Source: Mesorhizobium sp. L-2-11 (GTDB lineage Bacteria; Pseudomonadota; Alphaproteobacteria; Rhizobiales; Rhizobiaceae). Taken from it: a stretch of DNA of 64,000 bases. The stretch is taken from the NCBI RefSeq assembly GCF_016756595.1, contig NZ_AP023257.1, forward strand, positions 2,372,001 through 2,436,000, given 5' to 3'. Shown piece by piece: positions 59,827 to 64,000 of this stretch. Numbering within the stretch: the stretch's first letter is position 1; each line of letters starts with the position of its first letter. Both the position numbers and the translations under genes were made by a program. The notes beneath the pieces were generated by a model. That model saw only the letters and a list, made by a program, of their open reading frames with translations, did not search any database and was not told the origin of the DNA.

Positions 59827-61077
59827 CTACTTAAGCACGCATTTTGTTTCCGGTTCATCGACCCCGAGCGTATCGAGCTCCGACAGCTGGTGCAAAAATC
59901 CCTCCTGCGGCGATGTCGAGACGACTGATCTGGTGTCGCCGAGGAAGATTGGCTGCCGCAACTGCTGGTTCCACTTGCGGAAGGTCAGTTTCTGCCCCTT
60001 GAAGGCGGCGATCGAAAAATCGTCGGAGCGGATGAAGTCGGCCATCTTGCGCGGGTCGGCGCCCTGCGTGCGGGTCGCCGCCTCGCCGAGGACGCGCACC
60101 GCCGTCCACGCCGCCATGTCCTTCGACACCATGCGGCGGCTATTCGCCTTGGCGAAGCGGTTCTGGATCTGGGTGCCGCCCCATTGCTCGCTGGCCGGAT
60201 GCCAGGCCGACGGGGTGAGGCCGGCGGTGCCGGCGACCGGCCGTGGGACCCAGGTGCGGAACGGAACGTAGGTGCCGAACACCTCGCTTTCGTCGGCGAC
60301 CAGCAGCACATCGTGCTCCGGCAGGTCCTGGGTGAAGACAGGCATCTGGCGCTGGATCTGGACGACGCCGGAATCGGTACGCCGTGCCGTTCCGGTATCC
60401 TCGAACAGCTTTTCGCCGACAATCTCGCCGCCGAAGCGCGTCGCCGCCCGGCGCAGCGCCTCGGCAAAAAGCTGGTCGCGCTCGTGCGAGCCGTAGATCA
60501 GCACCCAGCGCCGCCATTGCTTCCAGATGAGATATTGCGCCAGCCCGTCGGCCAGCATGCTGCGCGTCGGGATGGTGTGAAAGATATTGGCGCGGCATTC
60601 CTCCTCGCGCAGACTGTCGTCGGTAGCGCCGGCGTTGAAGATCAAAACGCCGTTGTCGCGGGCAAGATCGGCGATCGACAGCAACTGCCTGGCCGAGAGA
60701 TCCGCGACCACATAGCGGTTGCCTTTGGCGATCATCTCCTGGAAGGCCGGGACGACATCTGCATCCGGCTTCACCTCGGTCACGTCGAGGCTGAACTTCT
60801 GGCCGAGGAAGCTGCCGGTCGTGTTGTTGTCGGCAATCGCCACATTGCCCCCGGCAACGCCTTCATCGCGCGGCGGGACGTCGAGCACCGACAACGCCAA
60901 CTGCGGCGCATAGGCGCGCAAATAGCCTATCTTGATCTCGGTCAGTTTTTTTTCCGGCTTGGCCGTTGCGGTCGGCTGCTTGCCCGTCGCTTCCTGGGCC
61001 AGCGCGCCCGCAACGTTGACGGTCAGGGAAAAAAAGCACAAAAAGGCCGCCAGAGTGCCCGGCACCGCGCTCGTCAT
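59827..61077 (-). CDS. ABC substrate-binding protein, PQQ-dependent alcohol dehydrogenase/lanthanide system
   Basis: 416 aa from ATG 61077 with signal peptide (MTSAVPGTLAAFLCFFSLTVNVAGALAQ). Type I periplasmic-binding fold like the branched-chain amino acid receptors: KIGYLRAYAPQLALSVLDVPPRDEGVAGGNVAIADNNTTGSFLGQ, DLSARQLLSIADLARDNGVLIFNAGATDDSLREEECR, and AWTAVRVLGEAATRTQGAD. This group is tied to PQQ-dependent catabolism and is like PedA1/LutA. First gene of the leftward cluster. A longer frame to 61284 overlaps the divergent promoter. Confidence 0.88.
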   Translation of the reverse strand: MTSAVPGTLAAFLCFFSLTVNVAGALAQEATGKQPTATAKPEKKLTEIKIGYLRAYAPQLALSVLDVPPRDEGVAGGNVAIADNNTTGSFLGQKFSLDVTEVKPDADVVPAFQEMIAKGNRYVVADLSARQLLSIADLARDNGVLIFNAGATDDSLREEECRANIFHTIPTRSMLADGLAQYLIWKQWRRWVLIYGSHERDQLFAEALRRAATRFGGEIVGEKLFEDTGTARRTDSGVVQIQRQMPVFTQDLPEHDVLLVADESEVFGTYVPFRTWVPRPVAGTAGLTPSAWHPASEQWGGTQIQNRFAKANSRRMVSKDMAAWTAVRVLGEAATRTQGADPRKMADFIRSDDFSIAAFKGQKLTFRKWNQQLRQPIFLGDTRSVVSTSPQEGFLHQLSELDTLGVDEPETKCVLK

Positions 61078-61302
61078 CGATAAAATTACCCATTCTTGCG
61101 CTAAAGTCCGATTGTTGTCGGAGCGGCGCGAAGTCAAGGTGCCCATGATGAGCTTAGCTGACCGGCAAATTTTATCAAACCCTGAAAGTGGACTTCTCAC
61201 GTCTGCTTTAGTGCCGTGCCTGCTCGCCCGAACGGCGACCGAGCGGATTTCGGTATTCGGGCCCAAGAACGCTCTGTCCCTCATGCCGGAGAAAGTCCGT
61301 CA

Positions 61303-63141
61303 ATGACCAGAATGCTGGCCAGCGTCACCGGCGTCGACGAGGCGGAGATCGCGCTTTCAGGCGGCGTCGACATCGTCGACCTGAAGGATCCGAAGGCGGG
61401 AGCGCTGGGCGCGGTGTCCACGCAGACCATCCGCCGGACGATTTCGCTGATCGCCGGCCGGGCGCCGGTCAGCGCGGTCTGCGGCGACCTGCCGATGGAA
61501 CCGGAGACCATTCGCGCCAAGGCCGAAGAGATTTCTGCAACCGGCGTCGATTACGTCAAGATAGGTTTTTTCCCGACGGCAAATGCCACCGCCTGCGCGG
61601 CTGCGCTCGAACCGCTCGCCGCCCGAACGAAACTGATCGCGGTCCTGTTCGCCGACCTGGCGCCGGATTTCGAGCTTCTGCCGATGCTTGCCGGACATCG
61701 CTTTCATGGCGCAATGGTCGACACTGCGATCAAGGCCAGCGGGCGCCTGCTCGACCATGTGCCGCCCGAGCGTATTCCGGGTTTCGTCGATCGAGCCAAA
61801 TCGCTCGGCCTCATGGTTGGGTTGAGCGGATCGCTGGAAGCCCCTGATATCCCGCGCATGCTGCCCTTCGTTCCCGATTTTCTCGGCTTTCGCGGGGCGC
61901 TGTGCGGCCATTCCGGCCGCGTCGGCTCGATCAGCGCCGAGGCGGTTGCGCAAATCCGCGACTTGATCCCGAAAGCATCCCGGGTCGGCGGCGCGTCGAG
62001 CGTCGACTACCGCCTGCTGGCGGCGAGGGGCTATTCGCCGGGCACCGACCCGACACTGGGTACCGACAAGATCTTCGTGCGGGACTTTGTCCTGCCGGTC
62101 CAGATCGGCGCCTACAGTTTTGAGCACGGCCATACCCAAAAAGTGCGTTTCGACGTGATCGCCGACGTGCTGCAAGTCACCGACCATCCCGAAGACATGC
62201 GCCATGTGTTTTCCTACGACATCATCATGGACGGCATTCGCACCATCGTCGCGCGCGGCCACATCCAGCTTAGCGAGGCCCTGGCCGAGCAGGTGGCGTC
62301 CTACATCCTGGAAAACCCGCGTGTCGTGCGGGTCACGGTAAGGGTGGAAAAACTCGAACTCGGCCCAGGCGGCGTCGGCGTCGAGATCGAACGCAAGCGC
62401 CAATCGGCAGGCCGCGGCGTTGCCTCCGGCTCTGCCGGCCGAAAAGACCAAAGCGCCGTTTCCCGGGCGCGACAGGAAAGGCCTGAGGCCATCAGGCGAG
62501 CCGTCAAGCCAGCCGTCGTCAAGCTTGGCGGCAGCACGGCCGATGCGGCGGAAATGGCGGACTGGGTCGCGGCGCTGGCGGGTTCCAAGCTGCCGATCGT
62601 CATCGTGCCGGGCGGCGGCCGCTTTGCCGACCAGGTGCGCGAGACGCAGATTTACATGGATTTTTCCGACACCGCCGCGCACGCCATGGCGATCCTCGCC
62701 ATGGAGCAGTTCGCCCAAATCATCCTCGACCGTGACGAAAGGCTGGAGCCGGCACGGTCGCTGGAAGAAATGCGGCGGGCGCTGGACGCGGGGAAGGTGC
62801 CGGTGTGGCTGCCGTCGTCATTGACGCTGCCGGCGCCGGACATTCCGGCTTCCTGGGATGTTACCTCCGATTCCCTTGCCGCCTGGCTTGCCGGCAAGCT
62901 CGGCGCAAATGCGCTGCTCCTGATCAAGCAGACAGGCGCCTTCTCCGGCAGCGACACGATCGACGGCCTGGCGGCCAGAGGCATCGTCGACGCCGGCTTC
63001 GCCGCCATGCTGCCCGACGGTGTCGATGTCCATCTCGCCGGCCCGAAAGATGCCTCCGAGGCCATGGGGTTGCTCGCGGCGGGCGTTCTGCCCGGCATTC
63101 GGATCGCCGCCCCGATCCGGTCGGCAAGAATAGCAGGGTAG
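61303..63141 (+). CDS. Three-domain fusion: MfnB-like synthase - FolB-like aldolase - amino-acid-kinase-like (methanofuran/H4MPT cofactors)
   Basis: 612 aa. Residues 1-240 are MfnB-like ((5-formylfuran-3-yl)methyl phosphate synthase): IVDLKDPKAGALGAVS (catalytic K28) and VDYVKIGFF (K86). Residues ~253-365 are a dihydroneopterin-aldolase-like FolB domain (DKIFVRDFVLPVQIGAYSFEHGHTQKVRFDV). After a basic linker, ~402-612 is an amino-acid-kinase fold (AVVKLGGSTADAAEM, IVIVPGGGRFADQVRE). In methylotrophs these are usually separate proteins. GGAGAAAG precedes ATG 61303. Followed 3 nt on by a flavoprotein gene. The pathway role is inferred from domains and neighbours. Confidence 0.87.
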   Translation: MTRMLASVTGVDEAEIALSGGVDIVDLKDPKAGALGAVSTQTIRRTISLIAGRAPVSAVCGDLPMEPETIRAKAEEISATGVDYVKIGFFPTANATACAAALEPLAARTKLIAVLFADLAPDFELLPMLAGHRFHGAMVDTAIKASGRLLDHVPPERIPGFVDRAKSLGLMVGLSGSLEAPDIPRMLPFVPDFLGFRGALCGHSGRVGSISAEAVAQIRDLIPKASRVGGASSVDYRLLAARGYSPGTDPTLGTDKIFVRDFVLPVQIGAYSFEHGHTQKVRFDVIADVLQVTDHPEDMRHVFSYDIIMDGIRTIVARGHIQLSEALAEQVASYILENPRVVRVTVRVEKLELGPGGVGVEIERKRQSAGRGVASGSAGRKDQSAVSRARQERPEAIRRAVKPAVVKLGGSTADAAEMADWVAALAGSKLPIVIVPGGGRFADQVRETQIYMDFSDTAAHAMAILAMEQFAQIILDRDERLEPARSLEEMRRALDAGKVPVWLPSSLTLPAPDIPASWDVTSDSLAAWLAGKLGANALLLIKQTGAFSGSDTIDGLAARGIVDAGFAAMLPDGVDVHLAGPKDASEAMGLLAAGVLPGIRIAAPIRSARIAG

Positions 63142-63144
63142 GCG

Positions 63145-63696
63145 ATGGCGACGCTACATACGCCGCGCTGGGCATGGGTTTTGACCGGTTCCGGTCATTT
63201 TTTTACCGAGAGTTTTGCACTCATCCACCAGATCGAGCATTGCGATGTCTTCGTGTCGAAAGCCGCCAACGAAGTGCTGCGCATGTACAAGCTCAAGCTC
63301 GATTTTCCGGAGACGACGCGCGTGCTGCACGACAAGACGGCGAGCGCGATCCCGGTCGGCGAATTCTATCACGGTGTCTATCATACCGTGGTGGTGGCGC
63401 CGGCCAGCTCCAACACGGTCGCCAAATGCGTGCACGGCATTTCCGACACGCTCGCCACCAACGTCTTTGCCCAGGCCGGAAAATGCCGGGTGCCGGCCAT
63501 CGTCTTTGCCTGCGACACCGCGCCGGAACTCGAAACCATGGCGCCGCATGGGCTGGTCAAGGTCTATCCGCGCAGCATCGACCTGGAGAACACCAACCAG
63601 CTGAAGAGTTTTGAGCGAACCCAGGTGGTCGAGTCGCTTGTCGATCTCGAAGCCTCGGTCAGGCGGCGCCACGCCGAACTCGCAAGCCATGGCTGA
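63145..63696 (+). CDS. Flavoprotein, dihydromethanopterin-reductase-like (DmrB type)
   Basis: 183 aa, a Dfp/UbiX-like flavoprotein. It shows WVLTGSGHFFTESFALI, VFVSKAANEVLRMY, HTVVVAPASSNTVAKCVHGISDTLATNVFAQAGKCRVPAIVFACDT. This family occurs in tetrahydromethanopterin gene clusters of methylotrophs, where DmrB/AfpA-type enzymes reduce dihydromethanopterin with FMN. It starts 3 nt after the fusion gene and overlaps the next gene by 8 nt. Confidence 0.82.
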   Translation: MATLHTPRWAWVLTGSGHFFTESFALIHQIEHCDVFVSKAANEVLRMYKLKLDFPETTRVLHDKTASAIPVGEFYHGVYHTVVVAPASSNTVAKCVHGISDTLATNVFAQAGKCRVPAIVFACDTAPELETMAPHGLVKVYPRSIDLENTNQLKSFERTQVVESLVDLEASVRRRHAELASHG

Positions 63697-64000
63697 GCGG
63701 CTGGTCTTTCTCACCGGCCATCTGGCCAAGGTTCGGCTGGAGAGGCTGCTGGCCGGACTGGGCGAAACCGAATTTGCCTGGGAGATCATCGACATCGGCG
63801 TCAAGGTCGCGGCGCTGATGAGCGAAGATATCATCAAGCGGCGGCTCAGCCTGACAGGCGCCGTCGACCGCGTCATCCTGCCCGGCCGCTATCGCGGCGA
63901 CATCGAGCATCTGTCGAACCATTTCGGCGTGCCCTTCGTGCGCGGGCCCGACGAGATCGCCGATCTGCCGGCCTTTCTCGGCCGGGCGGGCGAGCCGCCC
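63689..64000 (+). CDS. DUF6513 / dihydropteroate-synthase-related protein (3' end outside window)
   Basis: The first 104 codons read MAERLVFLTGHLAKVRLERLLAGLGETEFAWEIIDIGVKVAALMSEDIIKRRL and RVILPGRYRGDIEHLSNHFGVPFVRGPDEIADLPAFLG. This is the N-terminal domain placed before a pterin-binding TIM barrel in H4MPT cluster proteins of methylotrophs. The barrel itself would lie beyond the window. Overlaps the flavoprotein gene by 8 nt, showing one operon. Confidence 0.78.
   Translation, partial: MAERLVFLTGHLAKVRLERLLAGLGETEFAWEIIDIGVKVAALMSEDIIKRRLSLTGAVDRVILPGRYRGDIEHLSNHFGVPFVRGPDEIADLPAFLGRAGEPP

Follow-up and report, generated by a model that had tools for sequence, protein, structure and literature searches.

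Here, we present the fusion gene mfnB-folB-mfnE of Mesorhizobium sp. L-2-11, located in a window of 64,000 nucleotides, which is the whole stretch of DNA that was analyzed (NCBI RefSeq assembly GCF_016756595.1, contig NZ_AP023257.1, positions 2,372,001 to 2,436,000 of the forward strand). It is an uninterrupted gene of 612 codons with three complete domains, MfnB, FolB and an MfnE-type kinase, and represents a conserved fusion of three known enzymes that are usually separate proteins; it has evolved at least twice. The fusion is real and inherited in some soil bacteria related to the legume partner Mesorhizobium. We consider it likely that the product is a trifunctional enzyme serving the synthesis of two one-carbon carriers, methylofuran and (dephospho-)tetrahydromethanopterin. 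What was computed are the domains, the conservation of the active sites, the order of the genes, the two origins and the purifying selection described below; the three activities are what we infer. The original prediction of one 612-residue frame holding three full domains with no stop between them was exact in coordinates, strand and length. The gene and its parts are arranged in the window as follows:

61303..63141, + strand: mfnB-folB-mfnE fusion gene, 612 amino acids (aa), ATG to TAG, an uninterrupted frame without internal stop.

61312..61956, + strand: MfnB domain, furan aldehyde phosphate (4-HFC-P) synthase, residues 4-218; PF04476 E 5e-65, PDB 4rc1 (MJ1099) E 4.9e-25.

62071..62391, + strand: FolB domain (dihydroneopterin aldolase), residues 257-363; PF02152 E 3.7e-16, PDB 3v9o E 7.9e-11.

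62509..63138, + strand: MfnE-like amino-acid-kinase domain, residues 403-612; matches to AA_kinase, MfnE NF040622 and PDB 7qrh.

62401..62508, + strand: linker between FolB and kinase, residues 367-402; the fastest-evolving part, with a median ratio of nonsynonymous to synonymous substitution rates (dN/dS) of 0.37.

62458..62487, + strand: residues 386-395, probably the former C-terminal tail of FolB in a new frame; the shifted frame reads FPGRDRKG and resembles tails of unfused relatives.

62491..62494, + strand: ATCA; when the junction sequences are aligned by eye, MfnB-FolB relatives have their overlapping stop/start here (GTGA or ATGA).

61288..61291, + strand: GGAG, the likely ribosome-binding site of the fusion gene.

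The domains were assigned from sequence, by matches to Pfam, NCBIfam and PDB entries. All three exceed the Pfam cut-offs, as PF04476 reaches 219.9 bits against a cut-off of 22.4 for MfnB, PF02152 60.1 bits against 31.8 for FolB, and PF00696 (AA_kinase; residues 404-543, E 1.2e-11) 45.3 bits against 24.9 for the kinase. The nearest curated family of the kinase in NCBIfam is MfnE NF040622, [5-(aminomethyl)furan-3-yl]methyl phosphate kinase (aminomethylfuran-phosphate kinase), with 71.7 bits and E 6.5e-20. The best match to the kinase piece among solved structures is by sequence PDB 7qrh (E 1.3e-16), named Aspartate/glutamate/uridylate kinase by its depositors, which differs in being a chain of its own of 228 residues.

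Active-site positions are preserved in each domain. Residues D26, K28, K86, D140, K144 and R197 of MfnB are invariant in 114/114 rows of the alignment, and the lysines line up with those of MfnB of Methanocaldococcus jannaschii (MJ1099, PDB 4rc1/4u9p), which belongs to the same family but is a stand-alone archaeal enzyme with 242 residues in the crystal. In the FolB domain, E274, Y305, E325 and K350, which we take to be the catalytic Glu, Tyr, Glu and Lys, are invariant in 71/71 rows, with positions aligned to PDB 3v9o. The kinase residues G409, G410 and G437-G439 are invariant in 71/71 rows, and K407, D523 and K542 are conserved in at least 95%. These conservation rows include the window's own sequence more than once. 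The motifs named in advance (K28/K86, the FolB block, KLGG and PGGG) are all present, KLGG at residues 407-410 and PGGG at residues 436-439 of the fusion protein. K28, K86 and K144 stand at the places of the active-site lysines of the MfnB family, which include K27 and K85. Lys155 is named as a catalytic residue of MfnB in PMC11365854.

In the proposed trifunctional enzyme, the N-terminal MfnB domain would convert two glyceraldehyde-3-phosphates into 4-HFC-P, the amine would be made by a transaminase outside the fusion protein (the MfnC step), and the C-terminal kinase would add a second phosphate (the MfnE step). Independently, the middle FolB domain would cleave 7,8-dihydroneopterin and yield the 6-hydroxymethyl-7,8-dihydropterin from which the pterin half of methanopterin is built. 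The FolB step is part of pterin synthesis. The pathway proposed in PMC8141765 leads through MfnB, a transaminase and MfnE to aminomethylfuran pyrophosphate, which MfnF couples to the glutamyl-tyrosine or -tyramine part; the bacterial transaminase had not yet been identified. The MfnB and MfnE steps are non-consecutive because the transaminase MfnC acts between them in this pathway. Since the enzyme is a single chain, its three domains are made in equal amounts.

The fusion recurs among relatives of the window's species. A protein-cluster search gave 2099 homologous proteins at E <= 0.001 among 8000 scored. The 120 homologues listed of these 2099 comprise 39 full-length proteins with all three domains (triples) of 606-613 aa, one of which is the window's own, 78 MfnB-FolB proteins (doubles) of 384-414 aa, which may include triples cut by a contig end, and three partial rows. 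Full-length triples share 66-100% identity with the window protein, and the organism-named triples among the 120 are Mesorhizobium. A survey of one genome per species, covering the best 80 of 93 confirmed stretches, yielded 78 loci, 37 of which have MfnB and FolB in one frame (L009-L045). Nineteen of the 37 are triples, whose titles all name Mesorhizobium. A further 17 are doubles that adjoin an mfnE, and one is a double without an mfnE match in the stretch retrieved. The remaining 41 loci contain MfnB and have no FolB match within the retrieved stretch. In the window's genus group, MfnB is present in 5 of 37 genomes, and all five loci are triples. The triple-fused loci number 24 in total, including L004, from this genus group, and L038, both cut inside the kinase by a contig end. 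The start codon context ATGACCA is found in all 24, as is GGAG ahead of the ATG. In the matches listed from 385 genomes belonging to the class, a span from MfnB to FolB occurs only in the window's own genome and in G078, where it is split over contigs; the search model had 395 positions, with the kinase columns mostly gaps, and up to three candidates were scored per genome. The stretch 208-371 of G732 was rejected as a fusion, because its 172-aa frame is too short.

All three domains are under purifying selection across 22 loci. The median dN/dS of the 22 complete triples is 0.156 for MfnB, 0.179 for the first linker, 0.057 for FolB, 0.368 for the second linker and 0.267 for MfnE. L004, L038 and pairs with dS <= 0.05 were left out, which gave 183-229 of 231 pairs per region; the pairs are non-independent, and the values are descriptive. 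A sequencing or assembly artefact that merged separate genes has next to no probability. Nothing was found in its favor, and it is ruled out by the occurrence of the same fusion in the 39 full-length proteins and 24 loci, and by the selection on the protein sequence on both sides of the junction.

The three genes are commonly neighbors where they are not fused. MfnB is present in 92 of 397 genomes of the taxonomic order, Hyphomicrobiales, and gene order was determined in 80 of them; the 12 excluded are 11 genomes of genus group g102 with weak MfnB (53-70 bits), some of which, such as G213 and G365, have folB upstream, and G120, in which MfnB is in two pieces. The survey of the arrangement MfnB-FolB-kinase, put forward as a check in the original prediction, places folB directly downstream of mfnB in 41 of the 80 genomes, upstream in 8 and elsewhere in 31. 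The mfnB and folB downstream of it share one frame in 15 of the 41 and are separate in 26, including G125, where the equal frame lengths are coincidental. An MfnE match follows within 600 bp of folB in 38 of the 41. The one-frame MfnB-FolB occurs in six family groups. Azospirillum argentinense, from another order, has separate side-by-side genes for FolB, an MfnE-matching kinase, DUF6513, DUF447 and MfnB, near a pyrroloquinoline quinone (PQQ) alcohol dehydrogenase. From the gene order in both groups it follows that the fusion joined neighboring genes. The domains can indeed be separate, as had been noted: Orf22, Orf21 and Orf9 of Methylorubrum extorquens are called homologues of the furan enzymes MfnB, MfnE and MfnF in PMC8141765, where they belong to an archaeal-like methanopterin/methylofuran cluster, and differ from the fusion in being separate proteins.

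In G120, MfnB matches in two pieces within one 765-aa frame (G120:C1:2533335-2534060), which may reflect a divergent MfnB or a fusion of a different type. Plasmid pAB510c of Azospirillum sp. B510 carries a pair of folB and an MfnE-type kinase beside hydrogenase genes (L166:4037-5255); there is no mfnB in the 9.1 kb around the pair, and the plasmid is absent from the 50 records with an MfnB match.

The joining of the kinase occurred more than once. In a tree of 70 MfnB-FolB rows (66 different), well-supported branches force two origins of the triple. The first is a clade of 30 rows with a support of 99/89. The second is P0042, which is placed among doubles (95/86, 100/97, 100/99), shares 80% identity with the double P0106 to about residue 388 and diverges from there on, and is 66% identical to the window protein. 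The tree includes 23 of the 120 listed proteins, leaves out L101 and L104, and carries a long-branch warning for the deep doubles.

The DNA of the junction retains traces of the joining. A possible mfnE start overlaps the stop by four bases (NTGA) in 18 of the 24 double-fused loci, where mfnE is in another frame; two of the 18, L044 and L087, look alike. When aligned to old FolB tails, the frame shifted one base on is the best frame in 22 of the 24 triples. Its mean score is 19.7 (shuffled letters 14.8, standard deviation 1.4), that of the frame now read is 16.7 (shuffled 15.8), and that of the third frame 13.7 (shuffled 14.2). The reference consisted of 14 tails, picked out of the 24 double-fused loci for having such a tail, and the alignment-score test was chosen after a motif test. 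The junction DNA was compared with more distant doubles; the nearest ones (P0050, P0047, P0054 and P0044) are known as proteins only. Because the tail DNA best matches the old tail in the shifted frame, the Mesorhizobium triple probably originated when the FolB tail, which is highly variable, underwent a net shift of frame ahead of the old stop. We hypothesize that mfnB, folB and mfnE would first have been adjacent genes, that mfnB and folB would then have been joined, with mfnE starting at the overlapping stop, and that the net frame shift within the tail would have bypassed this stop.

Such a history might also have left the fusion as a passive by-product of overlapping operon genes, in which a chance frame change removed a stop and the domains stay independent, with no gain over separate proteins and no coupling. 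We give this explanation a little less than an even chance. The NTGA overlap puts a fusion one small mutation away, the linker with its median dN/dS of 0.37 evolves fastest, the furan steps are non-consecutive, and many genomes keep separate genes. Against a passive origin stand the one-frame MfnB-FolB in six family groups, the twofold origin of the triple, and the lack of any reversion to a separate kinase within the 30-row triple clade, all of which are still compatible with a neutral fusion.

The mfnB-linked FolB is probably a functional dihydroneopterin aldolase, because 38 of the 41 genomes in which folB directly follows mfnB have no other FolB, and FolK is kept in all 41. Two of the exceptions, G000 and G029, are Mesorhizobium triples with an additional folB next to folK; the third is G037, in which a second FolB match falls under the cut-off. 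Some forms of PTPS substitute for FolB, according to PMC5041015. PTPS had no match in 4 of the 41 genomes (G368, G180, G078 and G427), and the 37 genomes with a match are counted irrespective of PTPS type. In the 38 genomes without another FolB, the mfnB-linked copy most likely serves folate synthesis too. The original assignment of FolB to methanopterin is thus upheld in part. In the window's genome, where a separate folB adjoins folK, the fused FolB may act mainly for methanopterin. In the genus group sample, two genomes with MfnB have two FolB proteins each, and seven without MfnB have one.

A tree of 71 FolB rows places the 51 mfnB-linked sequences on one side and 20 others on the opposite side (support 91/84; 89% of bootstrap trees). 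One branch further on, two of the 20 others, both of family group f50, group with the mfnB-linked sequences (100/99). The tree is built from only 115 columns, and 17 triple loci as well as L008 and L043, which has no mfnE, were left out. Its own branch on this tree, its position directly beside mfnB in 41 of 80 genomes, the other FolB beside FolK in the window's genome, and a weak match to the NCBIfam aldolase/epimerase model would all be compatible with a domain that is not a pterin aldolase and instead either has a role in making methylofuran, be it as a structural core or in a step of unknown nature, or acts as a pterin epimerase. We regard this as very improbable, as the four catalytic positions are invariant in 71/71 rows, the domain is the sole FolB in 38 of 41 genomes that keep FolK, and the pathway proposed in PMC8141765 contains no such furan step.

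Several observations weigh against the assignment of a trifunctional enzyme and its proposed history. The best NCBIfam model for MfnB, NF002576, gives 271.1 bits, below its cut-off of 297, and two NCBIfam models named for the MfnB enzyme give 114 and 110.6 bits against cut-offs of 341 and 304. The FolB domain, with 46.8 bits, is below the TIGR00525 equivalog cut-off of 72.15. The 71.7 bits of the kinase are far under the equivalog cut-off of 300 for MfnE NF040622, which is reached by none of the 80 MfnB-bearing genomes of the order and by one of three control genomes. The MfnB and kinase steps do not follow each other directly. Linkage of folB to mfnB is not required, because 39 of the 80 genomes have FolB upstream or elsewhere. 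Besides the fused FolB, the window's genome has another FolB as well as three matches to PTPS, of which two are neighboring pieces, so that the fused copy is not necessarily required there. Finally, a stricter motif test ([KRQ][KR]G in the shifted frame) is positive in only 10 of the 24 triples.

The low kinase score would also be expected if the kinase acted on another substrate, for example tyramine or a pterin, and the folB-kinase pair without mfnB on pAB510c is in keeping with this. We consider such an activity very unlikely, since the NCBIfam model that fits best is MfnE, both for this kinase and for those of the relatives scanned, Orf21 of M. extorquens is called the MfnE homologue in PMC8141765, and another Azospirillum has the same pair clustered with mfnB. 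Of the two substrates originally suggested, the furan is favored by MfnE being the nearest curated family, and tyramine, to which nothing points, is not supported.

For the trifunctional enzyme, any coupling of the two pathways, as originally proposed, beyond the equal production of the domains is guesswork. We speculate that the fusion might be a control hub, in which one chain fixes the ratio of methylofuran to methanopterin synthesis and, where FolB is the sole copy, makes the folate supply dependent on the methylofuran operon. This is doubtful; if true, folate synthesis would have been handed over to a one-carbon gene cluster.

The 3' end of the fusion gene is 859 bases short of the window end, and most of the methanopterin cluster lies beyond the window. 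Two features follow the fusion gene within it:

63145..63696, + strand: flavoprotein of the AfpA / dihydromethanopterin-reductase type, the next gene; PF02441 E 3.4e-22, TIGR02700 and TIGR02699 below cut-off.

63722..64000, + strand: start of a DUF6513 / dihydropteroate-synthase-like gene, which continues past the window; for the whole protein TIGR00284 E 3.3e-52 (below cut-off) and PF20123 E 2.1e-19.

A DUF447 gene in the same direction comes after the DUF6513 / dihydropteroate-synthase-like gene. Further on, past a transposase-like and an integrase-like gene, are genes for an MfnF-like protein, Fae, a CitG-family protein, an MptN-like ATP-grasp ligase, Mch and a second ATP-grasp protein, followed by a methylene-methanopterin-dehydrogenase N-terminal domain, RFAP synthase and pterin carbinolamine dehydratase. 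The kinase thus lies in a neighborhood of methylofuran and methanopterin genes, as expected of MfnE. In many relatives, the MfnF-like gene stands directly after DUF447. In the window's genome, transposase- and integrase-like genes (named by eye) occupy about 68205-72849 in window coordinates, beyond the window, together with a 132-aa frame whose match in relatives falls at the position of the MfnF-like gene. The MfnF-like gene therefore seems to be partly duplicated and the methanopterin cluster split by an insert. At about 83949-86595, likewise beyond the window, there seems to be a partial tandem duplication: RFAP synthase (322 aa) shares its start with another frame, of 192 aa, and the 141-aa pterin carbinolamine dehydratase occurs twice. 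Upstream of the fusion gene, the 485-aa frame at 59827-61284 on the - strand is probably overlong, as its match to a PQQ-associated binding protein begins only at residue 132. The gap to the fusion gene is therefore likely to exceed 18 bases and may contain a divergent promoter.

The mfnB-folB-mfnE region is plasmid-borne in 11 (H1-H11; identity 55.7-61.5%) of the 56 records whose match covers at least 80% of the query. The plasmids are large and come from Phyllobacterium, Rhizobium and Sinorhizobium, and the cluster may move on them. Public databases hold the fusion protein under the name '(5-formylfuran-3-yl)methyl phosphate synthase' or 'dihydroneopterin aldolase'. On plasmid NZ_CP017942.1 of Phyllobacterium zundukense, a lone MfnE-type kinase that matches AA_kinase only (L165:7194-7832) is annotated as dihydroneopterin aldolase, and the adjoining MfnB-FolB protein is named for MfnB alone. 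The name of the lone kinase is likely an error in the public record, perhaps spread from fused relatives.

The closest known counterparts of the fusion protein are the MfnB-FolB doubles of Mesorhizobium, Pseudaminobacter, Phyllobacterium and others. They have the same first two domains and mostly the same surrounding gene order, but their kinase has a gene of its own, which in many cases could start within the stop codon of the double. Fusions of FolB to other cofactor enzymes also occur in eukaryotes, where, as described in PMC4224340, folB-folK-folP joins consecutive steps of folate synthesis, whereas here FolB is joined to enzymes of another cofactor. No description of an mfnB-folB-mfnE fusion was found among the titles and abstract starts listed from the open-licence literature, although a prior mention elsewhere is possible. 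In the same literature, no paper was found in which 'methanofuran' and 'dihydroneopterin aldolase' occur together, and the main text of PMC8141765 uses neither the word aldolase nor the word dihydroneopterin.

On the basis of genomes, PMC12628762 predicts that many Mesorhizobium use methanol by way of XoxF, a glutathione-linked pathway and the Calvin cycle, and the methanopterin cluster described here therefore stands apart. The fusion joins two non-consecutive furan steps of methylofuran synthesis with one pterin step of folate-like carriers. There seems to be little discussion of the enzyme behind the pterin half of bacterial methanopterin, and the fusion and gene order point to a specific FolB branch for this role. 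They raise the sharper question of whether the FolB branch linked to mfnB provides for folate as well as for methanopterin.

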